A DNA stretch of 64,000 nt from Leptolyngbya sp. BC1307 (GTDB lineage: Bacteria; Cyanobacteriota; Cyanobacteriia; Phormidesmidales; Phormidesmidaceae). The position numbers and the translations under genes were made by a program. Under the pieces are notes generated by a model. That model was not told the DNA's origin. It worked only from the letters and a program-made list of their open reading frames with translations, and searched no databases. Of this stretch, positions 3,875-43,543 are shown in pieces. Location: assembly GCF_002286735.1 (NCBI RefSeq), contig NZ_NRTA01000009.1:62001-126000 (forward strand). Reading direction: 5' to 3'. How positions within the stretch are numbered: the first letter of the stretch is position 1; every line of letters begins with the position of its first letter.

Positions 3875-5281
3875 TTGCCAAATAGCGAATCTACCGCTAA
3901 GTCTCAGACGGTCTCTCGTCATGAGCTGAGGGAGCTGGTGCGATCGCAGCTACAGGCCCTGCTAGAGCAAGAAAATCTGCGTGGGGCGAAGGCGCTATTG
4001 GTACCGGTGCAGCCCGCCGACATTGCTGAAGCGATTGAGGGACTGCCGGAGACCATGCAGGCGATCGCCTTCCGGCTGCTCTCTAAAAATGAAGCCATCG
4101 AAGTTTATGAAAACCTCGACTCTCCCGTTCAGCAAGCGCTAATTGAAGAATTTAAGCGGCAAGACCTGATCGACATTGTCGATAAAATGTCGCCAGATGA
4201 CCGGGCGCGGCTGTTTGATGAACTACCGGCCAAAATCGTGCGGCGGCTGCTAGAGCAGCTCAGCCTCCAAGAGCGTCAGGCCACTGCCCTGCTGCTGGGC
4301 TACGAAGCGCAGACGGCAGGCCGGATCATGACGCCGGAGTACGTCTCACTTAAAGAAAACTGGACGGTCGCCAGAGCCCTAGAGCATATCCGCGCCCAGG
4401 CTGACCTGAGCGAAACGGTTTACTACCTGTTTGTCACCAACTTTGCCCGCCAGCTAACTGGCATTCTCTCGCTGCGGCAGCTTGTAGTAGGGCAAACTGA
4501 GCAGACCATTGGCGAAATCATGACCCGTGAGGTGGTCTCTGTACAAACCGGCGCAGATCAAGAAGAAGTGGCCCGAATCATCCAGCGCTACGACTTTTTA
4601 GCGGTGCCGGTCGTCGATACCGAAGATCGGCTGGTCGGCATTATCACCGTAGACGATGTGATCGATATTTTAGAAGCTGAAGCTACTGAAGATATCTATA
4701 CGCTGGGCGGGGTACAGTCGGGCGGTGACAGCTACTTTCAGAGCAATCTGCTCGATGTTGCCCGCAAGCGGGTGGTCTGGCTCTCGGTACTGCTGATTAC
4801 CAATACCGTCACCGCCGCTGTGATTACCAGTCAAAAAGACGTGTTAGAAAAGGTAGTAGCGCTGACGGCCTTTATTCCGCTGCTGATTGGCACTGGCGGC
4901 AATGTGGGAGCCCAGTCTTCAACGGTCGTTATTCGCGGGCTGAATACTGACGAGCTGAAGATCAAAAATGCCTTTCGGGTGATTCGGCGAGAGGCGATCG
5001 CTGGCGCATTCTTAGGCATGATGCTGGGCATTGTCGTGACCGTTTGGGCCTACTTTCTACAAGGGGGCTCACCCGCCGATCTGCCGGTAGCGATCACCGT
5101 CGGAATTTCTCTGGTCGGCATCTCAATTTTGGCCTCTAGCGCCGGGGCAGGGCTGCCTTTTTTGTTTCAGTCCTTCGGGTTAGATCCAGCGCTGATGTCA
5201 GCACCCTTTATCACTACGATTGTGGATGTACTGGGCGTTTTGATCTATCTCAACTTAGCCCGGCAGATTTTAAACATCTAA
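3875..5281 (+). CDS. mgtE: Magnesium transporter MgtE
   Basis: 468 residues. Homodimeric Mg2+ channel of the inner membrane. Domains in order: cytosolic MgtE-N superhelix (about 20-135; MSPDDRARLFDELP is typical), two CBS domains (about 140-265; GRIMTPEYVSL and IGEIMTREVVSV open each), the connecting helix, and five membrane helices (about 290-465) with the conserved LIGTGGNVGAQSSTVVIRGL pore segment. The start is TTG at 3875; no in-frame ATG fits better before the conserved region. Activity in the family is gated by Mg2+ binding to the N and CBS domains. No regulatory RNA was recognised in the 131 bp upstream. Confidence 0.95.
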   Translation: MPNSESTAKSQTVSRHELRELVRSQLQALLEQENLRGAKALLVPVQPADIAEAIEGLPETMQAIAFRLLSKNEAIEVYENLDSPVQQALIEEFKRQDLIDIVDKMSPDDRARLFDELPAKIVRRLLEQLSLQERQATALLLGYEAQTAGRIMTPEYVSLKENWTVARALEHIRAQADLSETVYYLFVTNFARQLTGILSLRQLVVGQTEQTIGEIMTREVVSVQTGADQEEVARIIQRYDFLAVPVVDTEDRLVGIITVDDVIDILEAEATEDIYTLGGVQSGGDSYFQSNLLDVARKRVVWLSVLLITNTVTAAVITSQKDVLEKVVALTAFIPLLIGTGGNVGAQSSTVVIRGLNTDELKIKNAFRVIRREAIAGAFLGMMLGIVVTVWAYFLQGGSPADLPVAITVGISLVGISILASSAGAGLPFLFQSFGLDPALMSAPFITTIVDVLGVLIYLNLARQILNI

Positions 5282-5616
5282 GTTTGGCTAGCTTCGGCTG
5301 AGCAGTGTGAAGGCGACAGACTGGATTTGTTAAACTTGATATAATCCCCGTAAAAGCAAGACAAAAGTTAGGGACTGTCACAAGGAGTGTAGAACCCGTC
5401 AATTGCCCAATCTAGCCCGTGAACTGCCCAACGGCTGGCAGGCTGACTGCGTTATAAATCGGCCCTTTATGGTCCTTTAATATAGCTGTCGCTAGAAGCG
5501 AGATCTGCCGCTAGACTGCCGGTAATCCGAAGCCAGGCATACGCGCTTTAGCACAAAGAAATTGTTTAAAATAGACGTTAATCTTAGCCAGTGTCTGTAC
5601 TGGCAAATGGGAGCCT
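5282..5616. other. Gene-free stretch between mgtE and the DUF502 gene
   Basis: 335 bp without a convincing ORF. It contains a perfect extended -10 element at 5337-5345 (listed separately) and a weaker TAAAAT near 5573. No rho-independent terminator was found. It is either the long 5' leader of the DUF502 gene or contains a small RNA. Confidence 0.6.
5337..5345 (+). promoter_or_regulatory. Extended -10 promoter element
   Basis: TGATATAAT matches the extended -10 consensus TGnTATAAT exactly. No good -35 hexamer is present 16-18 bp upstream, as is common for extended -10 promoters. Transcription would begin about 5352, some 265 nt before the GTG of the DUF502 gene. It may drive the DUF502-nusB-ftsY genes or a small RNA. 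Confidence 0.5.
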
Positions 5617-20933: not shown

Positions 20934-21140
20934 CTAATGAGCGTAGTCAAAGAGCGTGTCTAAATACACTCGTGATGGGGTGCGATCGCCCTGGCTCTGA
21001 CCATTCTGAAGCAAAAATAGTGAAACTGCCGCCGCATAGACACGGTCTTGATCCCAGGCAGGATGAGTTTCGAGAAAGCCTTTCAGAGATTCGTGAAGTT
21101 CTTCAGGTATCTCGGCCAGGATGCTTACGGTTACTTGCAT
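20934..21140 (-). CDS. DUF2811 family protein
   Basis: 68 residues. The sequence VSILAEIPEELHESLKGFL, HPAWDQDRVYAAAVSLFLLQ, and the closing SRVYLDTLF match the small cyanobacterial DUF2811 family closely. Predicted all-helical with a ribbon-helix-helix-like length, but no DNA-binding role is established. Start ATG 21140. Its upstream side faces the DnaA-box-like cluster. Confidence 0.88.
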   Translation of the reverse strand: MQVTVSILAEIPEELHESLKGFLETHPAWDQDRVYAAAVSLFLLQNGQSQGDRTPSRVYLDTLFDYAH

Positions 21141-21808
21141 TTAGAACCTCATAGGTGGTCTCTGCGCTGCTGGCAGGTAGTCCGACTATTTTGAGCAGAT
21201 GGGTAGGGTTTGTCAATGATAAAAAAACTTGGAATGACTATTTTGGGTTAATTGTGAAAAACGATAAATCAGGCTTTCGAGCGCTTTTTTGTTACAAAAA
21301 TATTTATTAATCCCGGCTATTCTCATACTTTTAGAGCCTGCTATACAAAATCCCAAGAAAACCGTGAAGTCACTGACTTTGCGTTAAAACCTGTGGAAAA
21401 CTCTCCTCAACCTGTGGAAAACTTTTGGGAAATCGGTGGATAACCTGTGGAAACTCTCCGAGGAAGATTAGAAAGCAAAAAACCGTCGCGATGTTGGCTA
21501 ACTGATTTTTTGGGTTGCGTCTGTTGACATTTACCGCTATGAGCAATTTCCCAAGCTTATGTTTTCTAAGGGTTTCAGGCTGATACCTAGAAAAGTCATA
21601 GTCCGCAAGTTAACAATGAGCGAATCTGCTCAGGCTCAATTTGGTAGCTGTGGGCGTAAAAATCTGGCTCCGTTTTGAGATTTTGCGCGGCTTCTGGTCC
21701 TGCGTCGGGCTATTGGCATAGCCTGGGGAAAACTTATCCATTCCTCACAGTGAGCGATCGCTGACTACGCAAGCAAAGAATTGACCCTATCGCCCTTAAG
21801 GAGGGTTT
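21141..21808. other. AT-rich gene-free region with DnaA-box-like cluster
   Basis: 668 bp without an ORF. At 21220-21320 it is AT-rich and includes a 15-bp palindrome TTTTTGTTACAAAAA (21286-21300). Immediately after come four same-strand 9-mers in 63 bp: TGTGGAAAA (21392-21400 and 21413-21421), GGTGGATAA (21435-21443) and TGTGGAAAC (21446-21454). The reverse complement TTTTCCACA is the DnaA box reported for cyanobacteria, and TTATCCACA is the E. coli box. A weak TTATCCATT is at 21734. This is the layout of an origin or DnaA-regulated promoter, but no dnaN or dnaA is adjacent. Confidence 0.5.
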
Positions 21809-21844
21809 ATGCAAAAGCCTATTGATGTCTTCTGCAAAAGTTGA
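21809..21844 (+). CDS. 11-codon leader ORF upstream of phnD
   Basis: ATG at 21809 follows AAGGAGGG, a near-perfect Shine-Dalgarno, at the right distance (3-5 nt gap of T's). It encodes MQKPIDVFCKS and stops at TGA 21842, with TAG as the next in-frame codon. The phnD start 40 nt further on has no such ribosome site. Either translation of the leader affects phnD, or the leader is a remnant of an older phnD start now broken by stops; it is in the same reading frame. Confidence 0.45.
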   Translation: MQKPIDVFCKS

Positions 21845-21883
21845 TAGTCTCAGATTCCGCTTCAATTCCGAGCAATTTTTTCA

Positions 21884-22843
21884 ATGGCTAAAACTGTCTT
21901 TCGGAGCCGCCGCTCTGTCGTTGCTGGGCTGTGTGGTCTGCTGCTGTTTGCGGCCGTGGGCTGTGGCGCTCGCGGACCCAGTGAGGCTGACGCAGGTGCA
22001 GGTGATACGGCGGCTTCAACTTCAATAGAGCCTTTGTCTGTAGGCGCGATCCCCGATCAGGATCCGGAGAAGCTACAGCGGCTTTATAGCAAGCTAGCGG
22101 ACTATCTGAGTGCAGAATTGGGGGTACCGGTGGAATATCAGCCAGTGACTGATTACACAGCGGCGGTGACGGCGTTTAAGGTAGGCGATCTGGATTTGGT
22201 GTGGTTTGGCGGGTTGACTGGCGTGCAGGCTAGATTGCAAGTGCCGGATGCGGAGGCGATCGCCCAGCGCGACATTGACGCTGAATTTCACAGCATTTTT
22301 ATCGTCAATACTGCCAGCGGGCTCACCCCAATTGAGAATTTGGACGATTTGGTTAGTCTCAAGGGCAAAACTTTTACTTTCGGTTCAGACTCTTCGACAT
22401 CAGGCCGGTTGATGCCGCAGTATTTTTTATCACAGGCCGGGGTAGAACTGTCAGACTTTAAGGGCGATCCGGGGTTTTCAGACTCGCACGACGCGACGCT
22501 CAAGCTGGTTGAGTCCGGTAGTTACGATGCAGGTGCTCTGAACGAGCAAGTGTGGCTAGACCGGGTAGCTGAGGGCGAGGTGGACGAGAGTAAAGTGCGA
22601 GCCATTTGGCAGACCCCTGCTTACTACGACTATCACTGGGTGGTGAATAGCGATCAGCTCAACGAACAATACGGCGAAGGCTTTACTGCAAAAGTGCAGG
22701 CGGCACTGCTGAAGCTCGATGCGAGCAACCCTGAGCAGGCCGAAATCCTGGAGCTATTTGGGGCTGAAAAGTTTATTGAGACCCAAAATGGCAACTATGC
22801 CCAGATTGAGGCGGTAGGCCGTGAGATCGGCAAGATCAAGTGA
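21884..22843 (+). CDS. phnD: Phosphonate/phosphite-type ABC transporter substrate-binding lipoprotein
   Basis: 319 residues. Periplasmic binding protein of the PhnD/PtxB family. It begins with a lipoprotein signal peptide: basic start MAKTVFRSRRS, hydrophobic core, lipobox AVGC at about residue 27. The mature part has SVGAIPDQDPEKLQRLYSKL, YLSAELGVPVEYQPVTDYTA, LVWFGGLTGVQARL, KGKTFTFGSDSSTSGRLMPQ, all typical. First gene of a three-gene operon; it overlaps phnC by 23 bp. Substrate could be phosphonate, phosphite or a similar oxyanion; no catabolic genes accompany it. Confidence 0.93.
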   Translation: MAKTVFRSRRSVVAGLCGLLLFAAVGCGARGPSEADAGAGDTAASTSIEPLSVGAIPDQDPEKLQRLYSKLADYLSAELGVPVEYQPVTDYTAAVTAFKVGDLDLVWFGGLTGVQARLQVPDAEAIAQRDIDAEFHSIFIVNTASGLTPIENLDDLVSLKGKTFTFGSDSSTSGRLMPQYFLSQAGVELSDFKGDPGFSDSHDATLKLVESGSYDAGALNEQVWLDRVAEGEVDESKVRAIWQTPAYYDYHWVVNSDQLNEQYGEGFTAKVQAALLKLDASNPEQAEILELFGAEKFIETQNGNYAQIEAVGREIGKIK

Positions 22844-23597
22844 ACTAGATAACCCTGTTCTCAGCCTAAATAACGTCACCTGTCGGTTTGGTCAACTGGT
22901 GGCACTGCAGGCGGTGAGTTTGGTGGTCGCCCCCGGTGAGCGCGTTGCTTTAGTGGGGCCTAGCGGGGCCGGCAAAAGTACGCTGCTGAGCTTGCTAAAT
23001 GGGTCATTGAGTCCGACCAGCGGAGAGGTGAGGGTATTGGGGCGATCGCTGCAAAATCTCCACGGTGATCGCCGTCGTCAGGTACAGCGACAGGTCGGCA
23101 TGGTCTATCAGCAGCACCATTTGGTCAGCAATCTGCCGGTGATTCACAACGTCAATGCGGGTCATTTGGGGCGCTGGCCGCTGTGGAAAGCGCTGTGGTC
23201 TCTGGTGTGGCCTCAGCAGGTGAATGTCGCTCAGCAGGCACTGGCTCAGTTGGGGTTAGCCGACAAGCTCTATGCGCGAACAGATCGGCTCTCGGGCGGT
23301 CAGCAGCAGCGGGTGGCGTTGGCGCGTGTGCTTGTGCAAGATCCGGCCATTGTGCTGGCTGATGAGCCGGTGGCTAGCGTAGACCCGGCGCGATCGCACG
23401 ACATGATGAATCTGCTCAGCCAGATCGGTCAAAACAGAACGCTGCTGGTGAGCTTACACGATGTGGATTTGGCGAAGGCTTATTGCGATCGCATTATTGG
23501 TTTGCGGCAGGGACGGCTAGTTTTTGATCGGTCTAGCACGGCAGTCAGCCAACAGGATTTAGCTGAGCTTTATGACTTAAAGGCAGATGCCTTTTAA
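22821..23597 (+). CDS. phnC: Phosphonate-type ABC transporter ATP-binding protein
   Basis: 258 residues. Cytosolic ATPase. Walker A GPSGAGKST, Q-loop region VGMVYQQHHLV, signature LSGGQQQRVALARVL, Walker B IVLADEPVAS, and switch His in LVSLHDVDLAK. The VHN motif in NLPVIHNVNAGHLGR is typical of PhnC. GTG start at 22821 lies inside the end of phnD, and its stop overlaps phnE by 11 bp, so the operon is tightly coupled. Confidence 0.93.
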   Translation: MRSARSSELDNPVLSLNNVTCRFGQLVALQAVSLVVAPGERVALVGPSGAGKSTLLSLLNGSLSPTSGEVRVLGRSLQNLHGDRRRQVQRQVGMVYQQHHLVSNLPVIHNVNAGHLGRWPLWKALWSLVWPQQVNVAQQALAQLGLADKLYARTDRLSGGQQQRVALARVLVQDPAIVLADEPVASVDPARSHDMMNLLSQIGQNRTLLVSLHDVDLAKAYCDRIIGLRQGRLVFDRSSTAVSQQDLAELYDLKADAF

Positions 23598-25266
23598 GCG
23601 ATCAATTTCTCGAAGTCAAGGTGGCTTGCTGCTGTGGATCGGGCTGGTCGTTTGGTCGCTGTGGCTGGCTGGGCTCGGTCGCAGTCCGATCATTAACTGG
23701 GCGGGTCTGCCGATTTTGGGTCAGTTTTGGGCAGCGATGTTTCGTCCTGCTCTGGACGGCGAATTTGTCCGGGTGATTGGCGATGCCACCTTGACGACGC
23801 TGGCTTTTGCGGTTTGCGGCACGGCTTTGAGCTTGGTAATGGGTCTGTTTGGTGGGGTGGCCTGCTCGCAGGTTTGGTGGCAGGTGTGCTGGCCGGGCAC
23901 AGCGGGGCAAAGCCTGTGGATAGCGCTGCGGGGAACGTTGGTAATTCCTCGGGCGATTCATGAGCTGATCTGGGGGCTGCTGCTGCTGAATGTGCTGGGG
24001 CTAGATCCGCTGGTGGGAGTGCTGGCGATCGCCATTCCCTTTGGTGCCATCACCGCCAAGGTTTTTTCCGAAATTTTGGACGAGACGCCAACTGCGCCCT
24101 TGCAGTCTCTAATCAACAGTGGCGTTCGACCAGGCATTGCTTTTGTCTATGGCCATTTGCCTCAGGCCCTGCCCAACCTAATTTCCTATGGGTTCTATCG
24201 GTTTGAATGCTCGCTGCGGTCGGCGGCAGTGCTGGGAGTAATTGGCGCTGGCGGGCTGGGCTATCAGATCTTTTTGAGTCTCAAGTCTTTGCAGTATGCG
24301 CAGCTATGGACGGGGTTTTACGCGCTGATTTTGCTCAATGGGCTGGTGGATGCGTGGAGTGGTTGGTTGCGGCGGCGGATGGGGTTTGTCAGTCGGATGG
24401 ATTTGGTGGGGAGGCAGGATGAGGGAGAGGGGGAGAAGGGAGAAAAGGGGAAAGGGGGAAAGGGTTGGTTTGTGAGGCTTTCGTGGGGGGCGATCGCCGC
24501 AGCCTTCCCGCTGTGTTTGGCCTATTTAGATATCGACTGGAGTCGGTGGGGACGGGCGCGATCGCTTCTCTCAGAACTCGCCGCTCAGGTGACGCCTGCT
24601 CAGGTGCTGCCAGAATTTTCTTTTTCGCTGGTGCCGATGGCGCTGCAAACGGTGGCGATGTCGGTGATCGCCATTACGCTGGCGGGGCTGGGCGGGGTGG
24701 CTTTTTCATTTCCGGCGGCGCAAAACTTTTTTTTGCCGGGGGGGATACTGCGCTCAGCGGGTGAAGGGGGGCGCTGGGGGATGGGGCATTTGGCGCTGCT
24801 GCTCGCTCGATTGCTGCTACTGGGGGCGAGGGCGATTCCGGCTCCGATTTTAGCTTTGGTGATCTTATACGGGATGTTTCCTAGCATTTTGCCGGGGGCG
24901 CTGGCGCTGGGAATTCATAACTTTGGCATTTTGGGGCGGCTAATGGCGGAGGTGAATGAGAACTTGCCGGATGGGCCGGTGCGGGCGCTGCGATCGCTCG
25001 GAGCTTCTAGCGGTGGCCTGGTTTTCTATGGCATTTTGCCTGCGAATCTGGCCCGTTTTTTGGCTTACATTCTCTATCGCTGGGAGGTGTGTCTGCGGGA
25101 GACGGTGATTGTCGGCCTGGTCGGGGCTGGCGGCTTAGGGCGGCTGATGATGGAGCAGCTCAGCAGCTTTGACTACAGCGGACTAGCGGCGACTTTGGGC
25201 GTATTTATTGGCCTGACGATGGGTGTGGATTGTGTCAGCGGCTGGCTGCGTTCGGCGGTGCGCTAA
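23587..25266 (+). CDS. phnE: Fused double permease of the phosphonate-type ABC transporter
   Basis: 559 residues, about twice a normal PhnE (~260). Two complete permease domains are joined head to tail. The first half ends its EAA loop region with SLRSAAVLGVIGAGGLGYQI (about residues 208-228), the second with CLRETVIVGLVGAGGLGRLM (about 500-520). Between them is a hydrophilic Gly/Glu/Lys low-complexity linker (GEGEKGEKGKGGKG, about residues 280-293) coded by purine-rich DNA at 24417-24466. One chain can therefore supply the whole membrane channel. The ATG at 23587 overlaps the phnC end. Confidence 0.92.
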   Translation: MPFKRSISRSQGGLLLWIGLVVWSLWLAGLGRSPIINWAGLPILGQFWAAMFRPALDGEFVRVIGDATLTTLAFAVCGTALSLVMGLFGGVACSQVWWQVCWPGTAGQSLWIALRGTLVIPRAIHELIWGLLLLNVLGLDPLVGVLAIAIPFGAITAKVFSEILDETPTAPLQSLINSGVRPGIAFVYGHLPQALPNLISYGFYRFECSLRSAAVLGVIGAGGLGYQIFLSLKSLQYAQLWTGFYALILLNGLVDAWSGWLRRRMGFVSRMDLVGRQDEGEGEKGEKGKGGKGWFVRLSWGAIAAAFPLCLAYLDIDWSRWGRARSLLSELAAQVTPAQVLPEFSFSLVPMALQTVAMSVIAITLAGLGGVAFSFPAAQNFFLPGGILRSAGEGGRWGMGHLALLLARLLLLGARAIPAPILALVILYGMFPSILPGALALGIHNFGILGRLMAEVNENLPDGPVRALRSLGASSGGLVFYGILPANLARFLAYILYRWEVCLRETVIVGLVGAGGLGRLMMEQLSSFDYSGLAATLGVFIGLTMGVDCVSGWLRSAVR

Positions 25267-38043: not shown

Positions 38044-38637
38044 CTATGAATTTTGCAGCACTTGGTCGCCTGAGGCGATCGCCTGCCGCTCTTTATCCAG
38101 CCGGCGCTTGCGCGCATATAGCTGAATGGTCACGACAAAAGATAGGACTAACCCGGCCATCAACCAGGTCGTAGCCCCCGTCGGAAAGCTGTTTTGGAAA
38201 ATAACCAGCAGCACGATCGCCACTAGCAGCAGAGTAGGTGCTTCATTTAAAGCCCTCAGCTGCTTTGGCCCCCACTGGCACTCGCCCCGCTCCAGCTTTT
38301 TCATCAGCCGCGAGCAGTAGTGGTGATAGCCCAAAAGCAGCGCCACGAACCCTAGCTTGGCGTGCATCCAGCCTTCGTGCAGCACATCAGGGCGCTGCCA
38401 CAGCAAGCCAGCAGCCATCGCCACAGTCAAAATCATCCCCGGCGTGGTGATAATTCTCAGCAGACGCTTTTCCATCAGGCCGTACTGCTTTTTTAAAATG
38501 CTGCGAGCAGGTTCGGGCTCTTCATCGGCCTCCACATGGTAGATAAACAGGCGCACCAGATAAAACAAGCCTGCAAACCAGACCACCACGCCAATAATGT
38601 GAAACGATTTGAACCAGTAGTAAGCCATCCAATCCAT
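38044..38637 (-). CDS. hemJ: Protoporphyrinogen IX oxidase, HemJ type
   Basis: About 197 residues with four or five membrane helices. Oxidises protoporphyrinogen IX on the way to heme and chlorophyll. Family sequence: YYWFKSFHIIGVVVWFAGLF at the N-terminus with the conserved His, YGLMEKRLLRIITTPGMILT, HEGWMHAKLGFVALLLGYHH, and RALNEAPTLLLVAIV. Start choice: ATG at 38637 or 38628 both sit just before the conserved core; the TTG at 38649 is less likely. It diverges from menB (82-95 bp). Confidence 0.95.
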   Translation of the reverse strand: MDWMAYYWFKSFHIIGVVVWFAGLFYLVRLFIYHVEADEEPEPARSILKKQYGLMEKRLLRIITTPGMILTVAMAAGLLWQRPDVLHEGWMHAKLGFVALLLGYHHYCSRLMKKLERGECQWGPKQLRALNEAPTLLLVAIVLLVIFQNSFPTGATTWLMAGLVLSFVVTIQLYARKRRLDKERQAIASGDQVLQNS

Positions 38638-38731
38638 CGAAAGTAGCAATTACTCTATTTTCCGCTAGCAGCTTATATTTTGATCGCCTAGCTCATAGGT
38701 TCTTAACGTTATTCCTGATCCAGTTGGATCT

Positions 38732-39583
38732 ATGCCCATGTCTATGCCCATGAAAGTCACCTGGCAGCCCGTCAAAGATTACGAAGACATCCTTTATCAC
38801 AAAGCCGACGGCATTGCCAAAGTCACTATCAACCGCCCTCATAAGCGCAATGCCTTTCGGCCTAAAACCGTCTTTGAAATGTATGACGCCTTTTGCGATG
38901 CCCGAGAAGACACGACGATTGGGGTGGTGCTGCTGACCGGCATGGGGCCTCATAGCGATGGTAAGTATGCTTTTTGCTCAGGCGGCGATCAGAGCGTGCG
39001 TGGCGCGGCGGGCTATGTCGGTGACGATGGGGTGCCCCGGCTTAATGTGTTAGATCTGCAGCGGCTGATTCGCTCGATGCCTAAAGTTGTGATTGCCCTG
39101 GTCGCTGGCTATGCCATTGGCGGCGGTCATGTGCTGCATTTGATCTGCGATCTGAGCATTGCTGCCGACAATGCTGTTTTTGGCCAGACCGGTCCTAAGG
39201 TTGGCAGTTTTGACGGTGGATTTGGGGCTAGCTACCTGGCGCGCGTAGTCGGCCAGAAAAAGGCGCGCGAGATCTGGTTTTTGTGTCGCCAGTACGATGC
39301 GCAGCAGGCTCTGGATATGGGGTTAATCAATACTGTAGTGCCGGTTGAGCAGTTGGAGGCTGAGGGCATTGAGTGGGCGCAGGAAATTTTGCAAAAAAGC
39401 CCTATTGCCATTCGCTGTCTCAAGTCAGCTTTTAATGCAGATTGTGATGGGCAAGCGGGGCTACAGGAGCTAGCTGGCAATGCAACTCTGCTCTATTACC
39501 TCAGTGAAGAAGGAGCCGAAGGCAAGCAGGCTTTTTTAGAAAAACGTCAGCCAGACTTTAGGCAATATCCTTGGCTACCTTAA
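38732..39583 (+). CDS. menB: 1,4-Dihydroxy-2-naphthoyl-CoA synthase
   Basis: 283 residues. Crotonase-fold enzyme of phylloquinone synthesis, needed for photosystem I in cyanobacteria. Conserved: [34 protein letters not shown], the oxyanion [32 protein letters not shown], and [18 protein letters not shown]. Four closely spaced in-frame ATGs at 38732-38752 make the exact start uncertain by 6 residues. Standalone gene. Confidence 0.95.
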
Positions 39584-43500: not shown

Positions 43501-43543
43501 CCACAGCGACTTTGTCCACAGCGACTTTGTCCACAGCGACTTC
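43501..43543. repeat. 15-bp tandem repeat, about 2.9 copies
   Basis: Unit CCACAGCGACTTTGT at 43501-43515, 43516-43530 and a partial copy from 43531. In one frame it codes HSDFV repeated. Confidence 0.9.

Follow-up and report, generated by a model that had tools for sequence, protein, structure and literature searches.

The window is the whole 64-kb stretch analysed here, bases 62001-126000 of contig C9 in a 4.9-Mb genome of 222 contigs. Within it, an array of DnaA-box-like 9-mers lies upstream of a small gene of the DUF2811 family (Table 1). The initial annotation had listed four such 9-mers, and all of them are found where it placed them and on one (minus) strand. It had also described AT-rich DNA and the palindrome TTTTTGTTACAAAAA; both are present, and TTTTCCACA, which it took to be the reported cyanobacterial DnaA box, matches the published motif (PMC4674748). 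Its description of the surroundings as gene-free was right only in part. The DUF2811 open reading frame (20934-21140, minus strand) starts 260 bp beyond the box closest to it, so that 743 bp separate its start from the next gene, which encodes a phosphonate-binding protein (21884). An operon for a phosphonate-type ABC transporter (binding protein, ATPase, permease) runs divergently from DUF2811. Further along the window, two copies of TTGTCCACA lie 15 bp apart.

Table 1. Coordinates of the array, its gene and the loci compared with it (window positions unless a contig or locus is given)
Feature	Location	Strand	Remarks
DUF2811 gene	20934-21140	minus	68 aa; PF10929, E 9e-27
Predicted sigma-70-type promoter of DUF2811, TTGACA-17-CAAAAT	21188-21216	minus	TTGACAAACCC conserved there in relatives
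Conserved element GTAACAAAAAAGCGCTCGAAAGCCTGATT	21267-21295	minus	overlaps palindrome TTTTTGTTACAAAAA; same element at fixed spacings in relatives
GTAACAAAAA element	21286-21295	minus	overlapped by palindrome TTTTTGTTACAAAAA
Palindrome TTTTTGTTACAAAAA	21286-21300		
DnaA box 1, TTTTCCACA	21392-21400	minus	perfect match; closest to promoter
DnaA box 2, TTTTCCACA	21413-21421	minus	perfect match; 21 bp from box 1
DnaA box 3, TTATCCACC	21435-21443	minus	differs from TTTTCCACA at two positions and from TTATCCACA at one; 22 bp from box 2; in array register
DnaA box 4, GTTTCCACA	21446-21454	minus	one mismatch to TTTTCCACA; 11 bp from box 3
Phosphonate-type ABC transporter operon	21884-25266		divergent from DUF2811
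Two TTGTCCACA	43512-43535	plus	15 bp apart
Paralogue array, CAATTCTTAG	L004:5169-5347 (C10:98168-98346)		boxes at 5192, 5203, 5214, 5236; GTAACAAAAA at 5338
oriC (expected)	C35, between dnaA 36331-37647 and dnaN 38142-39260	both	seven perfect TTTTCCACA
Viral DUF2811 loci	L208:2980-3246; L209:2989-3192; L210:2986-3261		

The start-to-start distances of the four boxes are 21, 22 and 11 bp, and box-to-box spacings at the DUF2811 loci of relatives likewise peak at 11 and 21-22 bp. Could such a cluster arise by chance? Neither the window nor the genome holds more single near-matches to TTTTCCACA than expected: one-mismatch sites number 15 across the window against 11.7 expected, and the 31 perfect copies in the whole genome compare with 36 for the reversed pattern. 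This lack of overall enrichment would suit a chance cluster. Against it, a cluster of the size tested (three boxes inside 63 bp of a single strand, each differing from TTTTCCACA at no more than one position) was never reached in 100 first-order Markov sequences of 64 kb, in which the maximum was one box in 95, two in five and three in none, and the array is conserved over the class. Chance, which the initial annotation had kept as an option, is thus a vanishingly improbable explanation. Twelve of the 31 perfect copies fall in just three places, with seven in oriC, three in a 230-bp stretch of contig C10 and two in the window cluster.

The architecture between the boxes and the gene is rigid. 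At the DUF2811 loci of relatives, the last box lies 102-105 bp from GTAACAAAAA, which in turn lies 78-79 bp from TTGACA, and the boxes stand 181-185, 202-206 and 226-228 bp from TTGACA and onward in steps of ~22 bp. The window carries all three parts, namely the boxes, GTAACAAAAA and the TTGACA promoter; the latter is the only promoter-like site in 21100-21900, an interval in which one is expected by chance. Promoters of the Nostocales align at the boxes, at a block of GTAACAAAAAATaGGCTCAAACCCTGATT and at TTGACAAACCCACCCCC. A further element, CAATTCTTAT, precedes the boxes by 22, 44, 66 or 87 bp and occurs with them in 39 loci; the DUF2811 paralogue has it upstream, but the window holds no recognisable copy. 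A search of Rfam for a conserved RNA gave no matching family. A site for RpaB was also considered. The sequence GTTACATA-AA-TTTACATT before the paralogue fits what we take to be the HLR1 consensus of RpaB, but the elements of the window and of the Nostocales do not, so this reading was dropped.

The association of the array with DUF2811 is seen within the genome itself, where just one more cluster of perfect boxes exists outside the origin (C10:98213-98243, plus near-boxes), and it precedes a second DUF2811 gene by ~330-350 bp in the same orientation. The protein encoded in the window belongs to the family by a wide margin (93.6 bits versus a Pfam curated cut-off of 26.6), and DUF2811 is present in 38 of 38 relatives searched and, among 14 control genomes, in Synechococcus elongatus only. 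We sampled 94 DUF2811 loci from genomes with dnaA, whose presence was checked individually for those within a survey of 386 genomes. A perfect box accompanied by a second box no more than 50 bp away was found at 70 of the 94 loci (0.05 in shuffles) and at all 79 named Nostocales loci, which include Nostoc, Anabaena, Scytonema and Fischerella, although these counts are not independent, since many of the genomes are relatives of one another and family f1 contributes a disproportionate share. Perfect boxes in the 600 bp upstream, on the strand of the gene, average 1.40 per locus, compared with 0.009 in shuffles, 0.02 for the reversed pattern and 0.15 downstream. Tandem clusters near DUF2811 number 41 on the gene's strand and none on the opposite strand. 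The genes upstream of the array belong to 58 unrelated families and lie on the opposite strand in 48 cases and on the same strand in 46, so the array travels with DUF2811. Its conservation spans many families of the class. The strict array is absent at about a quarter of the DUF2811 loci, including those of three f21/g33 genomes that have dnaA; in G051, G105 and G121 of genus g33 (loci L117, L121 and L122), all with dnaA, only one or two near-boxes are left of the decayed array.

DUF2811 also follows dnaA in evolution. The survey of 386 genomes of the phylum contained 189 of class level, 170 with dnaA and 19 without. DUF2811 was found in all 170 genomes with dnaA (as a weak match only in G133). 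In the 19 without dnaA, it was absent from 13, carried stop codons in two (G174, G329) and was apparently intact in four (G084, G208, G292, G397), so that every class-level genome without DUF2811 also lacks dnaA (Fisher p ~7e-16, with kinship ignored). Counted by genus and family, there were at least nine losses of dnaA, and in seven of these at least one member has also lost DUF2811 or holds it broken. Both states are found within single genera: in g71, G184 has both genes and G279 and G286 have neither, and in g40, six genomes (G093, G101, G131, G154, G180, G269) have both and two (G176, G182) have neither. Rechecking the 19 genomes with full scoring revealed no overlooked dnaA. General gene decay is not supported as the cause by the one control family used, Ycf34, of which 15 of the 19 genomes have an intact copy.

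Of the four genomes that keep DUF2811 without dnaA, two have lost the boxes. In G397 the boxes are gone, whereas GTAACAAAAA and TTGACA are kept; in G084 they are gone as well, and three genomes of its genus with dnaA keep two or three perfect boxes. G208 and G292 retain one perfect box each, and a recent loss of dnaA, though unproven, would fit the retention of both gene and box in these two. Members of the phylum outside the class that bear DnaA are without DUF2811, which is therefore not a universal partner of DnaA.

Because the array is rigidly built, conserved and linked to DUF2811, a gene lost together with dnaA, we consider that the cluster probably (roughly 0.78) serves the DUF2811 gene as a cis-regulatory array that binds DnaA, and that DUF2811 would act in the DnaA pathway. 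That DnaA occupies the boxes we infer from their motif, a published one to which DnaA binds in vitro on fragments of oriC (PMC4674748), and the disappearance of the boxes from two genomes without dnaA lends indirect support. Binding would be cooperative, to three or four same-facing boxes whose spacings of 11 and 21-22 bp keep them in helical phase, and bound DnaA could then control the sigma-70 promoter of DUF2811 from ~182 bp before TTGACA, across the second conserved element. Such control at a distance, of whichever sign, we likewise infer. The label of DnaA-regulated element given by the initial annotation is borne out to the extent that conserved boxes stand at a consistent distance from, and orientation to, a promoter, as in DnaA-regulated promoters.

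An origin of replication, the chromosomal one or a second one in an unusual context, was another possibility raised initially. Several DnaA boxes do adjoin AT-rich DNA here, and some cyanobacteria initiate at several sites independently of DnaA (PMC7198777). However, the genome has a canonical oriC on contig C35 with seven perfect boxes between dnaA and dnaN, compared with two in the window; the denser cluster elsewhere that would speak against an origin is thus found, as far as boxes are concerned. The window site is not the densest cluster and, as the initial annotation had said of dnaN, has neither dnaA nor dnaN beside it. Moreover, its boxes all face one way at a fixed distance from a promoter, the paralogous DUF2811 gene has an array of its own, and the DUF2811 array is far from dnaA in other complete or near-complete genomes (e.g. 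G127, G361). The GC skew has no clear turn at the cluster within the 64-kb window, the span over which it was read in this genome of 222 contigs. We therefore regard an origin as highly improbable. What stands of the earlier interpretation is a DnaA-regulated element, rather than an origin or a coincidence.

A locus that titrates DnaA or switches its nucleotide state, like datA or DARS, with DUF2811 nearby by accident, is unlikely but deserves more weight than an origin. Good boxes clustered away from oriC would titrate some DnaA, and relatives repeatedly carry further clusters near recJ, guaA and elsewhere. Titration may accompany the array as a side effect, but as its function it leaves unexplained the rigid spacing to the DUF2811 promoter, as well as the co-loss of DUF2811 itself with dnaA; the strict strand bias and the varied neighbours also argue against it. 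It is more doubtful still that another protein of similar motif binds the array in place of DnaA. Binding by DnaA is predicted, and GTAACAAAAA and CAATTCTTAT suggest that additional factors act at the promoter. The motif is nevertheless that of the cyanobacterial DnaA box, the same word occurs in the genome's own oriC, and the boxes are gone in two genomes without dnaA, one of which keeps the other elements. The other recurring clusters (L078, L079, L081, L089, L095, L211-L214, L219-L221) lie beside recJ together with a TPR gene, beside guaA, beside a cation-efflux gene and beside an unnamed family of ~115 aa, and are possibly further DnaA targets or titration sites.

In other bacteria, DnaA is modulated by proteins such as Hda, SeqA, YabA and SirA. 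DUF2811 appears to be needed only where DnaA is, which would fit either a modulator of DnaA or a DnaA-dependent target, and its co-loss does not tell a regulator from a plain target. Within the DnaA pathway, DUF2811 would most likely be a cyanobacteria-specific modulator of DnaA that forms a feedback loop with it. We propose tentatively, at somewhat less than even odds, that DUF2811 is such a modulator in a loop closed by the array, and that this loop, and not replication, may retain dnaA where replication is DnaA-independent. By sequence, the protein gives the impression of a ribbon-helix-helix protein, for which Pfam and PDB searches gave no support; the PDB search returned no solved relative. 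The AlphaFold2 model is weak (pLDDT 63; helices 13-25, 31-46 and 54-65), and Foldseek with this weak model gave nothing significant. No paper on DUF2811 by name was found in the open-licence literature, though it may be known, for example under locus tags.

Promoters regulated by DnaA are already known, as are DnaA clusters outside the origin. At the E. coli dnaA promoter and in the Bacillus subtilis and Caulobacter regulons, as here, DnaA boxes lie in promoter regions outside oriC and DnaA serves as a transcription factor; the review of these promoters leaves cyanobacteria unmentioned (PMC8203912). The DUF2811 array differs from them in its three to four same-strand, helix-phased boxes ~180 bp before the -35 hexamer, its two further fixed elements, its class-wide retention and its DUF target. 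Clusters away from oriC are also found in intergenic regions of B. subtilis that bind DnaA and affect genes (Ishikawa 2007, as reported in PMC7198777); compared with that report, the DUF2811 array goes with a single gene family and disappears together with dnaA. The E. coli datA, DARS1 and DARS2 are likewise clusters of fixed internal geometry away from oriC, non-coding, which titrate DnaA or act on its nucleotide state (PMC4585315, PMC12371093). Unlike these, the DUF2811 array has its geometry fixed to a promoter, and the gene downstream follows dnaA in evolution. As far as the open-licence literature shows, a class-wide rigid array tied to one DUF that follows dnaA is undescribed.

The function of DnaA in cyanobacteria that replicate without it was described as unclear in 2020 (PMC7198777). 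DUF2811 now provides a named, testable candidate DnaA target kept across the class, and its repeated co-loss ties an uncharacterised protein to DnaA, which offers a way into the replication control of polyploid cyanobacteria. In Nostoc sp. PCC 7120, DnaA is dispensable for replication (PMC7198777), and all the related Nostocales examined have retained the array. Could control of DUF2811 be what DnaA still does there? DUF2811 is also encoded on three viral contigs (L208, L209 and L210), whose DUF2811 loci hold no perfect DnaA box. Two of them have phage-type DNA-metabolism genes beside DUF2811, with DNA-repair genes in L208 and primase and PAPS-reductase-like genes in L209, and the presence of DUF2811 on these contigs suggests that phages may act on the same pathway.
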